Source: Terriglobia bacterium (GTDB lineage: Bacteria; Acidobacteriota; Terriglobia; UBA7540). Taken from it: a stretch of 32,499 bases of DNA. The stretch's first letter is position 1. Each line of letters opens with the position of its first letter. The notes below the pieces were generated by a model that saw nothing but the letters and a program-made list of their open reading frames with translations, ran no database searches and had not been told where the DNA came from. The translations under genes and the position numbers were made by a program. The stretch is taken from assembly GCA_020072925.1 (NCBI GenBank), contig JAIQGA010000017.1, positions 1 through 32,499 of the forward strand, written 5' to 3'. Of the stretch, positions 12,152 through 20,658 are shown one piece after another.

Positions 12152-12154
12152 CTA
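12125..12154. repeat. Short hairpin element overlapping the oxidase subunit stop codon
   Basis: On the minus strand CATAGCGGCGGTTGCGCCGCC contains a GGCGG/CCGCC hairpin (12136-12140 with 12146-12150) followed by CCTGCCGGCCC. The TAG at 12154-12152 is the stop codon of the second oxidase gene. The layout, a TAG followed at once by a GC hairpin, matches the elements at 1151-1206 and 22385-22467. Confidence 0.45.
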
Positions 12155-13228
12155 TGTGGCGCGGGGGGCGGGGTGGAAGAAGGCGCGGAGCATCCAGGCG
12201 ACGGTGGCGAGGCCGCCCACCAGAAGGAGGGCGAACAGGACAAACACAAACCATTGCCCCTGGACGGGCAGCGTGCGGGGATCGAAATAGGGCCGCAGGT
12301 AAGCGACGCGCACCAAGTGGCGAATCACGGCCATCAGGCTGAGGGTTCCGACAATGGCGACGCAGGCGGCCGCCAGGCTTCGCTTCGCCGCCACCATGGC
12401 AAGCATCGCCAGCACAACGGCGATGACGAGCAGCGCGGTGGCCAGGCGGTCGCCGCCCAGAAACATCGCGCGGATGTCTTGCGGCAAGCCGAAGAGAAAC
12501 CACAAGCCGACCAGAAACTCGACGCCGGTCCCGGCCATGAACCACTTCACGCCGTAGGCGCGCGCCCACACCGCGAGCTCCGGGGCCTCCGTGCGCCACG
12601 TGCGCGCGAGCAGCGCAACACCCAACCCCGCCACGGCCGCCGCGCCCACCAGAAAGTGCAGCAACCGCGCTAGCCCCGGCGCCGTCACGGGGCCCAGCAC
12701 CGAGCCCACTTCGTGCCGCAGATGCAGCGGGTAGAAATCCTGCGGCCGCAGCATCAAAGTCATGTTGCGGGAAAAGATGAAGGCCACGAAGACGAAAAGC
12801 ACGGTCGTCGCCAGGATGACCCAGGGAGCGCGCGCGCCCAGTTCATCCTGCTGCAGGCTGAACCAGTAGACACCGTAATAGCCGAGCAGGACGAAGAACA
12901 CCACCGCCAGCCACGACCAAGCCATCAGCACGGACGAGGTATAAAACAGTTGCCCGTAAACCAACTGGAGGAAAAGCAGCGGCGCCACTCCCAGAGTAAT
13001 CGTGAAGGCCACGACGGGCGGCATGGCGCGCGCCGCGCGCCGCGCAAACTCACGATGTTGCAGGTCGTGCCGGCCCAGAAAACTCGAGAGGGTAAGCATC
13101 ATCACGCCGCCCGCCAGGAAATTCATCGCGACGACGTGCAGGACGAACGTGAACACCAGGAGAAACTCGAGCAACCACACGGGCGCGGGCAGTGGAATGG
13201 GGACGGGAGCGGGAATTACCGGATTCAT
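12152..13228 (-). CDS. Membrane subunit II of a divergent cytochrome bd-like oxidase, paralogous to subunit I
   Basis: A 358-residue protein with about eight hydrophobic helices. The start ATG (13228) overlaps the TGA of the upstream gene (ATGA), so the two are translationally coupled. The frame extends further upstream only inside the other gene. Helix 1 carries LHVVAMNFLAGG (His31), matching LHVFVSHFAIGGG of subunit I. A 32-residue gapless segment (228-259, KWFMAGT...GLW...LP...R...GG) aligns with subunit I residues 218-249 with 13 identities. His191 in LARLLHFLVGAAAVAG sits where canonical CydA has its FVHT haem-b558 histidine helix. It therefore looks like a CydA-type paralogue rather than CydB. 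Likely role: the second integral subunit of a terminal oxidase in the cytoplasmic membrane. Confidence 0.75.
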   Translation of the reverse strand: MNPVIPAPVPIPLPAPVWLLEFLLVFTFVLHVVAMNFLAGGVMMLTLSSFLGRHDLQHREFARRAARAMPPVVAFTITLGVAPLLFLQLVYGQLFYTSSVLMAWSWLAVVFFVLLGYYGVYWFSLQQDELGARAPWVILATTVLFVFVAFIFSRNMTLMLRPQDFYPLHLRHEVGSVLGPVTAPGLARLLHFLVGAAAVAGLGVALLARTWRTEAPELAVWARAYGVKWFMAGTGVEFLVGLWFLFGLPQDIRAMFLGGDRLATALLVIAVVLAMLAMVAAKRSLAAACVAIVGTLSLMAVIRHLVRVAYLRPYFDPRTLPVQGQWFVFVLFALLLVGGLATVAWMLRAFFHPAPRAT

Positions 13229-14589
13229 GGTTTGGATTCTCCCGAACTTGGCGCGGGTTGGACTTGCGCTTTCTCTCCCGGTGGCGGCGGTTCGATCTCG
13301 ACCGTCGCCGGCGTGGGGTTGAGCGTCGCCAACCAGGCGCCCAGGGCTTTGCGCTCCTCTTCCGTGCCCACAAAGGGCGGCATGAAGCCTTTCACCTCGC
13401 TCAGGTGGCTCAGTTGATAGTCGATCAAGATCCATCGCCAGCCCTTCACGGCAAACCGCACGCTGTTGTAGCCGTTCACGGTGTGGCAACTGGCGCACTG
13501 GGCGCGAAAGATTTCCTGCCCGGTCGACTCCAGCGCTTTCGGATCGACCTCGCGATGGCGTGCCCACAAGGCCGACTTCAGGATACCCTCCTGGCGGAGC
13601 CGCGGAAGGTCGTCGACCCGCACGCCATTCGCGAGCATGTAATCGTAAATGATGTAGGGCTTGCGCACCGCCTCTCGGACCCATTCGGTGACGCCCGTGC
13701 TCGAGAGCGCCATCACCGCCAGCAGAAACGCGAAGGTCAGGTTGAAGTGCCGCGGACGTTGGTAAGGTCCGAAGTACGTAAAGATCACCACCGCCGCCGA
13801 GAAGAAAATGGAGAGGCCGGCAAAGATCGTGACGGCGGGCGCGCCGCCCATGGAGATGTCGCGCGCGGCGGGAGGCAGCGTGGAAATGTACCAGAGCCCC
13901 GCAATCGGAATTGCCGCGGTCCCCGCCAACAGCCACTTCGCGGCGTACTGGACGACCTCGCTGCGCAGCGCCACGTCGCGCACCGTGGAGGCCGTCACGA
14001 GCGCGTACACGCCCGCCAGCGCGACCGCGACGGCTGTGCGCGCCACGCAGGAAGGCAGCATGCCGGGATTGAAAAACGCCGCGGCGAAGCTATGCGTCTC
14101 CAGCCACCGCCCGGGCGTGAGCATGAAAGTCAGGATGCCGTTGATCACGAACAGGCTCGCCCACGCCGCGCCGAAATAGATCCATCCGACGATCAAATGC
14201 GTGCGTCGGTCGAGGCGGTCCCAGCCGTGGTAATAAATAAAGGCCGCGGCGATCTCCACGATGAAGAAAACCCATTCAATCGCCCAGCCCCAGACGAAGA
14301 CGTGGATCAGCGTCGCGGTAGCTTCGGGATTCACCAGGGCGATGCTCCACCAAATACCCACGCCGCTCACCGCGCCGAAAACCAAAACCACCAGCACGAA
14401 GAATCGGGAATGCGACCGCGCGTACTCCAGCAGCGCGGGATTGTTCTCCCGATAAGCCTTGCGCTCCGTCACGGGCAAAAAGAGGCCGCCGCCAATCGCG
14501 AAGTGCGAGACGAAGACGTGCAGGATGGCGATAATCCCAATGATCATTCCCCCACCCAGGATGGGCGGGGTCCAGACCGGATAATTCAT
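13225..14589 (-). CDS. Cytochrome bd-like oxidase subunit I with C-terminal cytochrome c domain
   Basis: A 454-residue polytopic protein. The N-terminal 320 residues follow the CydA pattern: helix 1 with His24 and His29 (ILHVFVSHFAIGGG), a helix with Glu105 and Glu112 (AIEWVFFIVEIAAAFIYYHG) where E. coli CydA has its conserved Glu99/Glu107 pair, and TEWVREAVRKPYIIYDYM at the place of the GRQPW motif. There is no long periplasmic quinol loop. Residues about 355-435 form a monohaem cytochrome c domain with CASCH (Cys365, Cys368, His369) and a candidate axial Met403 in GFMPPF. Electron entry through haem c rather than quinol is therefore inferred. c-haem-bearing, Q-loop-lacking branches of the bd superfamily have been described. 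The helix matching the canonical b558 His186 helix (FNPGMLPSCVARTAVAVALA) has no histidine. The tail is Pro/Glu rich. The gene overlaps subunit II by 4 bases. Confidence 0.82.
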   Translation of the reverse strand: MNYPVWTPPILGGGMIIGIIAILHVFVSHFAIGGGLFLPVTERKAYRENNPALLEYARSHSRFFVLVVLVFGAVSGVGIWWSIALVNPEATATLIHVFVWGWAIEWVFFIVEIAAAFIYYHGWDRLDRRTHLIVGWIYFGAAWASLFVINGILTFMLTPGRWLETHSFAAAFFNPGMLPSCVARTAVAVALAGVYALVTASTVRDVALRSEVVQYAAKWLLAGTAAIPIAGLWYISTLPPAARDISMGGAPAVTIFAGLSIFFSAAVVIFTYFGPYQRPRHFNLTFAFLLAVMALSSTGVTEWVREAVRKPYIIYDYMLANGVRVDDLPRLRQEGILKSALWARHREVDPKALESTGQEIFRAQCASCHTVNGYNSVRFAVKGWRWILIDYQLSHLSEVKGFMPPFVGTEEERKALGAWLATLNPTPATVEIEPPPPGEKAQVQPAPSSGESKP

Positions 14590-14906: not shown

Positions 14907-16745
14907 GTGAAGTCCTGGTCACGACCAGTTCTGCTTCCTGTCGGCATTTTGTTCCCGTCGTTTATTTTGGCAACACTTATCTTCGGAGCGGAGAAGAAAA
15001 CCATGCCCCCCAAGGCGCCAACCGTCGCAGAAGCCCGAGCCTTCGTGGAAAAGGTGGAGGCGCGTCTCTTGGAAGCCAATGTGGAGGCGAGCCGCGCCGA
15101 TTGGGTGAAATCAACTTACATCACCGACGATACGGAGGCTCTGGCAGCGAAGGCGGACGAGCGCGCCATCAATGCGCAAGTCGAACTGGCGAAAGCCTCC
15201 ACTCGCTTCGATCGCCTGAAGCTTCCCGCGGACCTAGCGCGGAAATTGAAGCTCTTGAAAATATCGCTGACCCTGGCGACGCCCGCCGATCCGAAGGCCA
15301 GCGAGGAACTCACCCGCATCGTTTCTGGAATGGAAGGCGCGTACGGCAAGGGGAAATGGTGCCCGCCGGGGAGCGACAAGTGTCTGGATATCGAAGACCT
15401 CTCGCGGCTGATGGCCGAGAGTCGCGTCCCGAACCAACTGCGCGATGCCTGGGTGGGGTGGCACCGGATCTCGCCGCCTATGCGCCCGGATTTCGCGCGC
15501 TACGTGGCGCTCGCCAATCAAGGTGCGCGAGAATTGGGCTTCGCTGATACCGGCGCGCTCTGGCGCTCGAAATACGATATGCCGCCCGACGACTTCGCGC
15601 GGGAGATGGACCGGCTTTGGGAACAGGTCCGGCCGCTCTACCTGCAGCTCCACGCCTACGTGCGCAACCGGCTGCGCGAGAAGTACGGGGACGATGCGGT
15701 GCCCGCCACAGGCCCCATCCCGGCGCACTTGCTGGGCAACATGTGGGCGCAGACTTGGGAGAATGTCTACTCGCTCGTCGCCCCGCCGAACGCCGACCCG
15801 GGTTATGACCTCACGGAGATACTCAAGGGCCGCAAGACGGACGCGCAGCAGATGGTTCGTTACGGCGAAGGATTTTTCACTTCCCTGGGCTTTGCTTCCC
15901 TTCCCGAGACGTTCTGGCAACGCTCCCTATTCACTAAGCCGCGCGATCGCGAGGTGGTCTGCCACGCCAGCGCCTGGGACGTGGATTTTGCGGACGATCT
16001 GCGGGTGAAGATGTGCATCGACATCACCGGCGAGTACTTCGCGACGATTCATCACGAGCTCGGGCACAACTTCTACCAGCGCGCTTACAATCGCCAGCCG
16101 TATCTCTTCCGCGACAGCGCGAACGACGGCTTCCACGAGGCGATTGGCGACACCATCGCCCTGTCGATCACACCCGAGTACCTGGTGAAGCTTGGTCTGC
16201 TCGACAAGGCCCCTGACCCTTCGAAGGATATCGGCCTGCTGCTCAACCAGGCGCTCGATAAGATCTCCTTCCTGCCATTCGGCCTGCTGATCGACCAGTG
16301 GCGCTGGAAGGTTTTCTCGGGCGAGGTCCCACCCGAAAAATACAATGAGTCCTGGTGGGCGTTGCGGCGGAAATATCAGGGCGTGACGCCGCCCGTGGCC
16401 CGCAGCGAGGAGGACTTCGACCCCGGCGCCAAGTACCACGTGGCCGCCAACGTTCCCTACGCGCGCTATTTTCTCGCCGACATCCTGCAATTCCAGTTTC
16501 ACTGCGCGCTGGCGCAGGCAGCGGGATGCACGGAACCGCTTCACCGCTGTTCGATTTACGGAAACAAGGAAGCCGGGCGCCGCCTGAACGCCATGCTCGA
16601 AATGGGCCAGAGTCGTCCGTGGCCCGACGCGCTCGAGGCGCTCACCGGGGAGAGGCAGATGGACGCCACGGCCATCCGCGACTACTTTGCGCCCCTCGAA
16701 AGGTGGCTGGAAGAACAGAACCGCGGGAAGCCGGTCGGCTGGTGA
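14907..16745 (+). CDS. M2-family metallopeptidase (peptidyl-dipeptidase A, ACE-like), exported
   Basis: A zinc dipeptidyl carboxypeptidase that removes C-terminal dipeptides. The 612 residues match bacterial ACE homologues. It starts at GTG (14907) five bases after GGAGGAG. An N-terminal hydrophobic stretch (LLPVGILFPSFILATLIFGA) gives a signal peptide or anchor, so the enzyme is periplasmic. The zinc site is complete: HHELGH with His383 and His387 as ligands and Glu384 as catalytic base, plus Glu411 in GFHEAIGDT. Other M2 blocks are LLGNMWAQTWENVYSLV, FWQRSLF and VCHASAWDV, together with TPPVARSEEDFDPGAKYHV and YARYFLADILQFQFH near the C-terminus. The GH106-like gene follows 76 bases later on the same strand and may be cotranscribed. 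Confidence 0.95.
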   Translation: MKSWSRPVLLPVGILFPSFILATLIFGAEKKTMPPKAPTVAEARAFVEKVEARLLEANVEASRADWVKSTYITDDTEALAAKADERAINAQVELAKASTRFDRLKLPADLARKLKLLKISLTLATPADPKASEELTRIVSGMEGAYGKGKWCPPGSDKCLDIEDLSRLMAESRVPNQLRDAWVGWHRISPPMRPDFARYVALANQGARELGFADTGALWRSKYDMPPDDFAREMDRLWEQVRPLYLQLHAYVRNRLREKYGDDAVPATGPIPAHLLGNMWAQTWENVYSLVAPPNADPGYDLTEILKGRKTDAQQMVRYGEGFFTSLGFASLPETFWQRSLFTKPRDREVVCHASAWDVDFADDLRVKMCIDITGEYFATIHHELGHNFYQRAYNRQPYLFRDSANDGFHEAIGDTIALSITPEYLVKLGLLDKAPDPSKDIGLLLNQALDKISFLPFGLLIDQWRWKVFSGEVPPEKYNESWWALRRKYQGVTPPVARSEEDFDPGAKYHVAANVPYARYFLADILQFQFHCALAQAAGCTEPLHRCSIYGNKEAGRRLNAMLEMGQSRPWPDALEALTGERQMDATAIRDYFAPLERWLEEQNRGKPVGW

Positions 16746-16821
16746 CAGCGTCGGCGCAACCTCACGTGCTTTGCGGACCCGAACCTTCACTCGCTAATTG
16801 GCAGAAGAAAGGAACACTCGC

Positions 16822-19800
16822 ATGCTCCCCATCACGCGTCGGCATTTCTTGGGTATCACTGCCACCGGCCTCGGAGGCCTCTGGCTGGGAGAGCCGTGGC
16901 CTGCGCGGGCCAACACCGCGCCGAGCGCCGCGGCGTTCGAGGAACTGCACAAGCGCTTTCAAGACCCGGAGCGCAAATACAGCATTCGGCCGTTCTGGTT
17001 CTGGAACGGCAAGCTCGACGGCGAAGAGTTAGGAAAACAGATTCGCCAAATGGTCGAGCACGGCGTGTACGGCGCCTACGCGCACAACCGCGATGGGCTC
17101 GAGACGCCGTACCTGTCCGAAGCCTGGTGGCAGGCTGTGGGCGAAGCGCTCCACGCGGCGCGCGAAGCCGGTTTCTCCTTATGCATGGTGGACGAATTCG
17201 AGTGGCCGAGCGGCGAAGCGCGCGACTACTGGCTTCCGGGAACCAACAAGAGCCGGGTCGTGGCCGCTAACCCCGATTTTCGCATGCGCTGCCTGCGCCC
17301 TCACGAAACCGAGGCGGCAGGCAATCAGCCTCTCAACCTTTCCCTCCCTGCTCACACCGCGTTGGTGGTTGCCGGACGGCTGCTGGGGCCGGGTCGCCTT
17401 GACGGGGAAAGCTTGCGGACCCTGGATTGGGACCGGGGAACTCAGAAGCTTTCCTGGACGGCCCCCGAAGGCAAATGGTTGGTTTCCGTTTATGGCCTGG
17501 AAGAAACCCAGAGCCCCGACGGCGGAACCGTGGATTTGATGAGCTCAGAAGCCGTTCGGAAGTTTATTGATATCTACTACGAAGAGTTCTATCAACGGCA
17601 TAAAGACTATTTTGGGAAAACATTCGTAGCGACCTTTGCCGACCACGAAGGCTCTTACGGAGCCACGATCGGCTGGACCCCGCGCCTGTTTGAAACCTTC
17701 GCCCAGCAAAAGGGCTATCGCCTGGAGGCGTATCTTCCCGCGCTCAAATACGACATCGGCCCAAAGACGGAAAAGCTCCGCTGCGATTATCAGGACGTCG
17801 TCAGCGAGCTCTATTCACGAAATTTCTTCGGGCAGGTGAGCGAATGGTGCCGCGCTCACGAGCTCGCCTATTCGGGCCACGTTTGGGAGGAATCGCTCTA
17901 TTTCGGCCCCTGGGTGCAAGGGGATTTTTTCCACATCCTGCGCGCGCTTGGAAATCCCGGCTGCGACACACTGGTGGAGTGGGGGCGGCAATCGGTGTGG
18001 CTGAAGGAGGTGGCGTCGGTGGCGGATTTCGAGGGCCGTCGCGCGGTCTGCGAAAACCAGGGGGTGCAGGGCAGCGATTCCTACCTTTCGCCCGAGCGCA
18101 TGCGGCGCGTCTCAAATTGCCTGGGCGCGTGGAACATCGCGGAGTTCATCCCGCACGCCTTTGATTACGATCTCAACCGCATCAATTTCCCGCCCGACTG
18201 GTTCCGCAGCCAGCCTTTCCTTTCGCAGTTCCACTCTTACGCGGACCAGATGCGGCGCATCAGTTTCATGAATTCCGAAAGTCGCCACGTGGCCGACCTG
18301 CTTCTCTACTATCCGCAGGTCTCGATCTGGGGGCAAAGCGCCACGGCGTTCCGCGACCAGAATTTTGAGTCGATTCTCTCGGATGCCGCCTGGACCGCGG
18401 ACGCTACCGACACCAACACCACTTATGCTCTGCTGAAGCTTCGCCTAAGTGAAGAGCGTTTCGATTACAAATGCGCGGACGACTATTATCTCAGCCAGAG
18501 CCGCATCGAGGGCAACTCGCTGCGTATCGGCGATTCAAGTTCTCAAATTCTGATTTTGCCGCCCATGTCCACGCTTCGTCGCGCGGTTGCCGAGCGGGTG
18601 CGCGATTTCTTTCAGGCCGGCGGAACCGTCATCGCCCTGCACCACCTGCCGATGAATTCCGTCGAAGACGGCCGTGACGATCCCACGCTGAGGACGCTTT
18701 GGGGAACCATGTTCGATACGCGGCCCACGGCGGCGTCATTTACGGAGCGCACCAACGCGCAGGGCGGCCGCGCCTACTTTGTTACCGGCTCGGTCGAAGA
18801 CGTTCTGAGCTTGTTACCGAAGCTTGGTGACCGCGACGTAGAAGTCGTGAGTGGCCCGGCGGAACAGCTTTACGTCCTCCACAAGCAAAAGGACCGCCTG
18901 GATTTCTACTGGGTGGTGAACGATACGCCGTCGCCGCGGACAAACGTTCTGCACCTTCGTGCTACGGGCCGCGCCGAGCGCTGGGACGCGGCTACAGGAA
19001 AACGTCTGCCGGTTTTCTGCCAGACCGCCGACAAGCACTCCCTGGTACGGCTTTCGCTCGAGGCCTGGGATGCGGCGTACATAGTTTTCGACCCGTCGGG
19101 ACCCGGTCAACCGCTCGAACTCAAAGCCACGAACCTGGATGACCTCCACATCCTGAAAGCCGAATCCGATCACGCGATGGTCCAGGCGCGACGCCTCGTC
19201 ACCGCTGAGCCTGCTTTTGTTGAACTCACTCAGCGCGGCAAGGTCTATCGCGGCGAGTACAAACCTGCGCCGGCCACACCGCTCGAGATTACAGGGGCGT
19301 GGGAAGTGACTGTCGGCGCGCCTGCCATTTCGCTGCCCTATGCGCAGGTCCGCGACGATCCAAGTGAGCAGGGCGTGCGCGAGCACTGGTTTGCGGCTGA
19401 AACGGAAGAGCCCTGGGCAAGATTGTGGCTCTCGCCCATGAACTGCTCGATCCGCGAGTGGAACTTCATCGGGCCCTTCGCCAACCCTGGCGATCGCGGA
19501 CTCGAGGAGAGCTTTCCTCCCGAGCACCAAATCAATTATGAAATGGTGTACACGCTCGAGGGGGGGCGCGAAGTGCGCTGGTGCGCTTCCAACTCAGCAG
19601 AGGAAATCATGGAACGTCCGCAGGGAGGATGGAGCCTGGGCACGGTCGTTCTGGGCGGCGGCCCCTACGCGCCCCGCGCCAATATCGTCGATTACGGCAA
19701 AGTCCTGCGCATGAGTTCTCCGCTGGCCGGAACGGTCTTTGCGCAAACCCATCTCCACGTTCCTGAGGCGCTTGACGCCGTGGTAGTCCTATCCACACCC

Positions 19801-20658
19801 AACCCCGCAGCGGCGTGGATGAATGACCGGCAGGTTTATTCGCGGTGGCTACGTCCGCTCTACCACGAGCTCACCGATGGTTTCGCGTTTCGAATCCCGG
19901 TGCACATCGAAGCGGGATGGAACAGCCTGCTGCTGAAGTTCCTCCACAACCCCGTGAGCGCAAAGGCCGGCGTGTTTACGTGCCGCCTCGACGGCGCCGA
20001 CCAGCGCCCACTACAAGACTTGACAATCACCACACGACGAATTCCCGCTGATCGAATGCACGGGGCGACCGGTTTTCGCTGGCTGCGTTTTCCTGTGCCG
20101 CCGGTTGCCGGCGCCTTGCGCGTCCCGGCGCTCCGCGCTTCCTGGCTCGCGTTCGTGGACAGCAAGTCTGCGCCCGCGGCGAGCGAGATTACACTGCCCC
20201 GCGGCACGCGCGTTGTGGCGCTGCGGGTGGCGGCGAGCGAGGTCCTCGATCAACCCTTCGAGTTTGTTGCAACGCGCGCGTCAATGCCGCTTGGGACCTG
20301 GAGCATACCCGGCCTCGAGCACTTTTCCGGCTACATGACCTATGAGAAAACCATCGACGTCCCAGGGGCGTTAGTGAAGGAGCGATTGCTGCTCGATTGC
20401 GGCGAAGTCGGTGTGGTGGCAGAAGCCTGGATCAATGGCGCTTACATCGGCGCCCGGCCCTGGCAGCCATTTGTTTTCGACGTCACCGAGCACGTGCGGC
20501 CCGGCACGAATCATCTCAAGCTACGCGTCGCGAACACCGCCGGCAACGCGCGCGCCGTCGGGACGTGGCTTGACGATCTGAAAAACATCGACCTGAATGG
20601 CTGGCTGGGCCCGGCGCGCCTGGTGCCGTATTTCGACCGCGAAATCCGCTGCGGGTAG
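16822..20658 (+). CDS. GH106-like glycoside hydrolase (alpha-L-rhamnosidase type), Tat-exported
   Basis: A 1,278-residue exported enzyme. The start at 16822 is preferred because the Tat signal ITRRHFLGITATGLGGLWLG then lies at the N-terminus and AAAGGA precedes the ATG; an earlier TTG at 16798 is possible. The first catalytic-region block SIRPFWFWNGKLDGEELGKQ, with IRQMVEHGVYGAYAHNRDGL after it, is the GH106 opening strand and helix of the TIM barrel. VDEFEWPSG and SGHVWEESLYFGPW carry the most plausible acidic active-site residues. Several beta domains follow. Near the C-terminus, SGYMTYEKTIDVPG and AWINGAYIGARPWQPFVFDV match a GH2-type sugar-binding jelly roll. The probable role is release of rhamnose from plant or bacterial polysaccharides in the periplasm. 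It ends 53 bases from the convergent SGNH gene. Confidence 0.85.
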   Translation: MLPITRRHFLGITATGLGGLWLGEPWPARANTAPSAAAFEELHKRFQDPERKYSIRPFWFWNGKLDGEELGKQIRQMVEHGVYGAYAHNRDGLETPYLSEAWWQAVGEALHAAREAGFSLCMVDEFEWPSGEARDYWLPGTNKSRVVAANPDFRMRCLRPHETEAAGNQPLNLSLPAHTALVVAGRLLGPGRLDGESLRTLDWDRGTQKLSWTAPEGKWLVSVYGLEETQSPDGGTVDLMSSEAVRKFIDIYYEEFYQRHKDYFGKTFVATFADHEGSYGATIGWTPRLFETFAQQKGYRLEAYLPALKYDIGPKTEKLRCDYQDVVSELYSRNFFGQVSEWCRAHELAYSGHVWEESLYFGPWVQGDFFHILRALGNPGCDTLVEWGRQSVWLKEVASVADFEGRRAVCENQGVQGSDSYLSPERMRRVSNCLGAWNIAEFIPHAFDYDLNRINFPPDWFRSQPFLSQFHSYADQMRRISFMNSESRHVADLLLYYPQVSIWGQSATAFRDQNFESILSDAAWTADATDTNTTYALLKLRLSEERFDYKCADDYYLSQSRIEGNSLRIGDSSSQILILPPMSTLRRAVAERVRDFFQAGGTVIALHHLPMNSVEDGRDDPTLRTLWGTMFDTRPTAASFTERTNAQGGRAYFVTGSVEDVLSLLPKLGDRDVEVVSGPAEQLYVLHKQKDRLDFYWVVNDTPSPRTNVLHLRATGRAERWDAATGKRLPVFCQTADKHSLVRLSLEAWDAAYIVFDPSGPGQPLELKATNLDDLHILKAESDHAMVQARRLVTAEPAFVELTQRGKVYRGEYKPAPATPLEITGAWEVTVGAPAISLPYAQVRDDPSEQGVREHWFAAETEEPWARLWLSPMNCSIREWNFIGPFANPGDRGLEESFPPEHQINYEMVYTLEGGREVRWCASNSAEEIMERPQGGWSLGTVVLGGGPYAPRANIVDYGKVLRMSSPLAGTVFAQTHLHVPEALDAVVVLSTPNPAAAWMNDRQVYSRWLRPLYHELTDGFAFRIPVHIEAGWNSLLLKFLHNPVSAKAGVFTCRLDGADQRPLQDLTITTRRIPADRMHGATGFRWLRFPVPPVAGALRVPALRASWLAFVDSKSAPAASEITLPRGTRVVALRVAASEVLDQPFEFVATRASMPLGTWSIPGLEHFSGYMTYEKTIDVPGALVKERLLLDCGEVGVVAEAWINGAYIGARPWQPFVFDVTEHVRPGTNHLKLRVANTAGNARAVGTWLDDLKNIDLNGWLGPARLVPYFDREIRCG

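Follow-up and report, generated by a model that had tools for sequence, protein, structure and literature searches.

Two overlapping genes in a Terriglobia bacterium (GCA_020072925.1, contig JAIQGA010000017.1) encode paralogous CydA-type proteins, the first of which carries a C-terminal cytochrome c domain, and together they likely form a heterodimeric, bd-type O2 reductase fed by a periplasmic cytochrome c and not by quinol. The original prediction had described a bd-like oxidase built from two CydA-type paralogues, one of them with a c-type haem domain; its main point is correct, the pair being real, widespread and probably a member of an already named family. As far as we can tell, the new elements are a strict partition of the haem ligands over the two proteins and the spacing of two ligands in helix 3.

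Sequence and fold of the two subunits

The window, i.e., the whole stretch of DNA analysed here, comprises 32,499 nucleotides. The two genes overlap by 4 bases, as predicted beforehand, and are located as follows:

13225-14589, minus strand: open reading frame of subunit I, 454 aa, a CydA homologue with a C-terminal cytochrome c domain
12152-13228, minus strand: open reading frame of subunit II, 358 aa with an ATG start, a CydA-like paralogue with nine helices and no CxxCH
13225-13228, minus strand: ATGA overlap of 4 bp, in which the stop of subunit I is the start of subunit II, read directly from the sequence

Pfam assigns residues 18-225 of subunit I to Cyt_bd_oxida_I (PF01654; 7e-12, above cut-off) and residues 355-420 to Cytochrome_CBB3 (PF13442; 1.6e-8). 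Subunit II by itself matches neither Pfam nor NCBIfam, and its PDB sequence matches do not rise above chance, which could speak for a common CydB or for a membrane protein of unrelated origin whose motifs resemble those of subunit I by coincidence. The profile comparisons, however, leave this explanation with a practically negligible probability. For these, four alignments were built, one for each of the two subunits, one for canonical CydA with 54 rows and one for CydB with 51; the rows of the last two were drawn from Acidobacteriota loci. In HHalign, subunit II matched subunit I over its whole length (E 2e-19; reversed control 0.13) and CydA at 1.3e-10, and subunit I matched CydA at 7e-19. 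Against CydB, subunit II reached only 0.058, which is no better than reversed CydB (0.031) and falls among the reversed controls for this subunit (0.03-0.18; 0.008-0.48 across all comparisons). Moreover, phmmer searches with subunit I recovered subunit II at other loci, with E values down to 2.9e-13. The comparison with CydA and CydB had been set beforehand as the one that could refute the claim of a CydA-like partner, and it returned a CydA match, with CydB at the level of the reversed controls. Judged by sequence profiles, subunit II is hence a CydA paralogue, chance is excluded as the source of the likeness, and both CydB and an unrelated membrane family are ruled out. A membrane-anchored urate oxidase, which also combines helices with a cytochrome c (PMC4562309), was considered as a further candidate and dropped, the Pfam scan having shown nothing of this kind at E values up to 1.

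The AF2 models, with a mean pLDDT of 90 for subunit I and 93 for subunit II, match cytochrome bd subunits in the PDB, which make up all top 20 fold matches of subunit II and the top 19 of subunit I. PDB matches of subunit I are to CydA chains, the best being 9r2g_A (2.7e-6). Because subunit II also fits the CydB fold (9r2g_D, TMt 0.73), the fold comparison was not used to tell CydA from CydB.

Regarding the motifs proposed to be common to both proteins, LHVxxxxF...GG is present in helix 1 of each, and the gapless block of residues 218-249 (subunit I) and 228-259 (subunit II) with 13 identities is real, BLASTP aligning 14 of 35 positions at E 6e-6 (residues 215-249 versus 225-259). A third motif, RxxxRPY/RKPY, turned out to be out of register, with R309 of subunit I pairing with R307 of subunit II and not with the later RPY (R312). 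The CASCH cytochrome c domain had been recognized correctly but misplaced: it follows helix 8 and replaces helix 9, whereas the quinol loop, located between helices 6 and 7 in CydA, is simply missing from subunit I according to both AF2 model and alignment.

Haem ligands and the proposed route of electrons

The ligand columns were numbered by E. coli CydA via the common motifs, using 40 rows for subunit I and 37 rows for subunit II; the E. coli residues serve as haem ligands in established cytochrome bd structures. The relevant features are:

13663-14556, minus strand: membrane core of subunit I with eight helices, residues 12-309, from AF2 secondary structure and charge count
14518-14520, minus strand: H24 of subunit I, equivalent to the haem ligand H19 of CydA, 40/40 in the alignment
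14254-14277, minus strand: E105 to E112 of subunit I, equivalent to CydA E99 and E107, 40/40 each, 7 apart and without a Leu101-type insertion
13663-13674, minus strand: E306-A-V-R309 of subunit I, equivalent to CydA E445 and R448, E in 38/40 and R in 40/40
13321-13542, minus strand: cytochrome c domain of subunit I, residues 350-423, predicted periplasmic, from Pfam and the AF2 helices 350-364 and 410-423
13483-13497, minus strand: CASCH haem-c motif, residues 365-369, with C365, C368 and H369 invariant
13381-13383, minus strand: M403 in GxMPPF, probable distal haem c ligand by analogy with class I cytochromes c, 99% conserved
13136-13138, minus strand: H31 of subunit II, equivalent to CydA H19, 37/37
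12656-12658, minus strand: H191 of subunit II, equivalent to the b558 ligand H186 of CydA, 36/37

With eight membrane helices, subunit I should have both its N-terminus and its C-terminal c domain in the periplasm, and the positive-inside count agrees, the four cytoplasmic loops carrying 11 K+R and the short periplasmic ones 2. This predicted topology puts E306 and R309 at the end of helix 8 that faces the periplasm, directly ahead of the c domain. The haem-c residues are invariant across 84 sequences and CxxCH occurs in every subunit I row, although the number of motifs varies: the window protein has one, many Acidobacteriota have two, a few have three, and two loci (L069 and L087) have eight.

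According to the alignment, subunit I has the core that defines the bd superfamily, with equivalents of the ligands H19, E99, E107 and E445-R448; the E445 equivalent is missing in two of the 40 rows (L077 and L081). Its H186 column holds no conserved histidine (L, M, F or V, and A183 in the window protein). Conversely, subunit II combines the H19 and H186 equivalents with that of R448 (R307, 35 of 37 rows), mostly has D or H in the E445 column (32 of 37) and lacks equivalents of E99 and E107. M393 has an equivalent in neither subunit, its column in subunit I not being conserved as M, and the Q-loop columns (E257 region) are gaps throughout (40/40 rows for subunit I, 37/37 for subunit II). The di-haem ligands in subunit I and the H19 and H186 equivalents in subunit II together suggest that the ligand set of a single CydA has been split over two proteins. 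Such a strict partition would offer a simple mutagenesis handle on the haems needed for bd-type O2 reduction.

The spacing of the E99 and E107 equivalents is 7 in all 40 subunit I rows and 8 in 13 of 14 canonical CydA sequences (alignment count). An additional residue in helix 3, which is Leu101 in E. coli and has no counterpart in Geobacillus, has been linked to the question of which haem binds O2 (PMC8951039). Since subunit I has no Leu101-type insertion, we predict by analogy a Geobacillus-like arrangement with the O2 site at the E306-ligated haem.

In the scheme that we infer, the two proteins would assemble into a heterodimer and bind haems as follows. Electrons would enter subunit I via its fused haem c in the periplasm and pass to two active-site haems, of b or d type, that are bound by helices 1-4 and E306 of the same subunit; there, O2 and protons from the cytoplasm would yield water. 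Subunit II would be a CydA derivative that takes the place of CydB and has lost the O2 site, with H31 and H191 probably holding one or two b haems that would serve either electron transfer or the structure of the protein. Consistent with a cytochrome c-linked enzyme, the di-haem ligands are retained, H186, M393 and the Q-loop are gone, and the c domain is predicted on the periplasmic side where E306 and R309 lie. Furthermore, the genome encodes cytochrome c assembly, NrfD-type proteins and cytochromes c that could feed the enzyme, and for bd superfamily members without a quinol site cytochrome c is the probable donor (PMC10839748). Speaking against it are L077 and L081 with their missing E445 equivalent, the lack of an M393 equivalent as second ligand of any haem b558, and the position of the gene pair in the window away from respiratory genes. 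Our literature search found no biochemistry or activity report for such a pair.

A reverse or non-oxidase role, i.e., cytochrome c-linked electron transfer to quinone or the detoxification of peroxide or NO, appears improbable. Reverse electron flow was proposed for some bd-like genes of Nitrospira (PMC6606698), and at one locus (L083) the pair is flanked by a NapA-like gene and multihaem cytochromes. Subunit I, however, retains every ligand of the O2-reducing di-haem site, and the loss of the quinol loop and of the b558 ligands argues against a quinone as partner.

Within the preferred reading of a cytochrome c-fed O2 reductase, the role of subunit II could be understood in two ways. We tentatively propose, with somewhat less than even confidence, that the ligands of a three-haem CydA ancestor were divided, leaving subunit I with the two active-site haems and haem c, and subunit II as a haem-b subunit (H31, H191) without an O2 site; the absence of the Leu101-type insertion would then place O2 reduction at the E306 haem, beside the point of entry from haem c. 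If true, both subunits of this bd-type cytochrome c oxidase would contain haems, an arrangement for which we found no solved structure. It is also quite possible, although we would not expect it outright, that the enzyme is the same but its subunit II binds no haem and, like CydB, has a structural role only, the conserved histidines being part of the fold or of a quinone pocket. CydB indeed contains no haem despite the common fold (PMC8951039), CydB folds fit subunit II as well, and the E99, E107 and M393 equivalents are absent from it. Yet distant phyla share H31 without exception and H191 almost without exception, both falling exactly on two haem-ligand columns of CydA, and subunit II has kept R448 and mostly D or H in the E445 column.

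Relation to described bd families

Within the bd superfamily, the window pair presumably corresponds to the family OR-C. Murali, Gennis and Hemp, in ISME J 15:3534 of 2021, reportedly described OR-C as a bd-type core without a quinol site, with a C-terminal cytochrome c domain and with paralogous a and b subfamilies. The pair shares with this description the missing quinol-binding loop, the C-terminal fusion of a cytochrome c domain to subunit I and the CydA-type partner instead of CydB, and it therefore probably belongs to OR-C, a named and biochemically uncharacterised family with whose description it was compared. The ligand partition, the Geobacillus-like helix 3 spacing, tandem operons of two subunit I genes and one subunit II gene, and octahaem forms are traits read here from sequence. 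No OR-C structure was present among the PDB sequence or fold matches.

The families qOR, OR-C and OR-N differ in their subunits and in their quinol and haem sites (PMC10839748). The CydAA' proteins of OR-N from Nitrospira and Nitrospinota also consist of two CydA-type paralogues without a quinol site and with cytochrome c as presumed donor (PMC10839748, PMC12342949), a likeness drawn from the published description. In Acidobacteriota, a bd-like protein adjoining complex III-type genes (L149/L172 and L150/L173) branches apart from the window family in the tree. These CydA-like proteins of 621-639 aa have no haem c, retain H186 and lack E99 and E445; in L173, the gene lies beside one for a protein of ~1018 aa and cytochromes c resembling alternative complex III. 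Our guess is that they represent OR-N.

With the archaeal CydAA' (qOR4a), the window pair has the heterodimer of CydA and a CydA paralogue in common. The abstract of the 2021 classification is said to describe archaeal CydAA' as a quinol oxidase without haem c. The window pair differs from qOR4a in having a fused haem c and no quinol loop, the archaeal enzyme being a terminal quinol oxidase (PMC12542729). Canonical CydAB (qOR) resembles the pair in the fold and di-haem ligands of subunit I, but the Q-loop, H186 and M393 in subunit I and the CydB partner are all missing here.

Distribution, evolution and genome context

The original prediction had suggested that the combination of a CydA-CydA' pair with haem c would be worth describing. 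While the combination itself is real, it is not rare and probably corresponds to OR-C. In a sample of one genome per species, 128 stretches were confirmed and 80 kept as loci, covering at least ten phyla, among them Acidobacteriota, Armatimonadota, Ignavibacteriota/Bacteroidota, Eisenbacteria, Latescibacterota, Bacillota, Calditrichota, Thermodesulfobacteriota, Krumholzibacteriota, Omnitrophota and Planctomycetota. Subunit II adjoins subunit I or is near it in all 73 loci with room for it, the remaining seven ending at or shortly past subunit I; at one locus (L078) ~1.5 kb lie between the two genes, and in a few lineages the order is reversed with subunit II first. Weak PF01654 matches in Acidobacteriota are mostly due to this pair, and the subunit II profile matched in 51 of the 199 Acidobacteriota genomes sampled. 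If our reading is right, many uncultured soil and sediment bacteria would possess a bd-type cytochrome c oxidase that is missed by CydA/CydB and quinol oxidase labels, the window subunit II falling into no Pfam or NCBIfam family, and the genome-based reading of oxygen respiration in such bacteria would change.

In a maximum-likelihood tree of 93 rows, subunit I, subunit II and CydA each form one clade with full support, the long branch of subunit II possibly distorting the deepest branching order and hence which paralogue split first. The distances of subunits I and II correlate across 37 loci (r = 0.84), a value reached by none of 999 permutations (maximum 0.24). Such mirror trees are most simply explained by one old pairing that was inherited or transferred jointly.

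Several variants of the pair were observed. At three loci (L018 5378-9087, L020 6001-9719 and L021 6001-9726), two differing c-type subunit I genes stand in tandem before one subunit II gene, both copies having the full di-haem ligand set. Two loci from Calditrichota and Bacteroidota (L069 6001-8658 and L087 6001-8682) encode a subunit I of ~890 aa with eight CxxCH motifs and subunit II upstream; this octahaem extension could take electrons from outside. A more divergent sister pair, whose subunit I has ~500 aa and one haem c (L168, L169 and L170), occurs in Acidobacteriota genomes that also have the window type. In L083 (4588-9141), the genes after the pair encode a protein with seven haems, a molybdoprotein resembling NapA and a small cytochrome c, which suggests that the lineage concerned links the pair to nitrate reduction.

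In the window, the neighbours of the pair are a creatininase-like gene, an M2 peptidase gene and a GH106-like gene; as no respiratory genes surround it within the window, the pair stands alone. This is mostly the case at other loci, too, where the neighbours for the most part give no functional clue. The same genome contains canonical CydA and CydB (L001, L114) and haem-copper oxidase genes, and the pair would therefore be one of several terminal oxidases. The cytochrome c assembly genes and the NrfD-type (alternative complex III-like) genes of this genome are accompanied by many other cytochromes c. The remnant of a second subunit II is found in this genome on contig 132 (L009 1531-1776, minus strand), comprising only the C-terminal ~49 residues with 63% identity and a stop codon. 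Divergently oriented from the oxidase operon, window positions 14907-16745 encode an intact bacterial homologue of angiotensin-converting enzyme (Peptidase_M2, 1e-229). Window positions 16798-20658 encode a protein of 1286 aa with a match to GH106 alpha-L-rhamnosidase and a galactose-binding-like domain.
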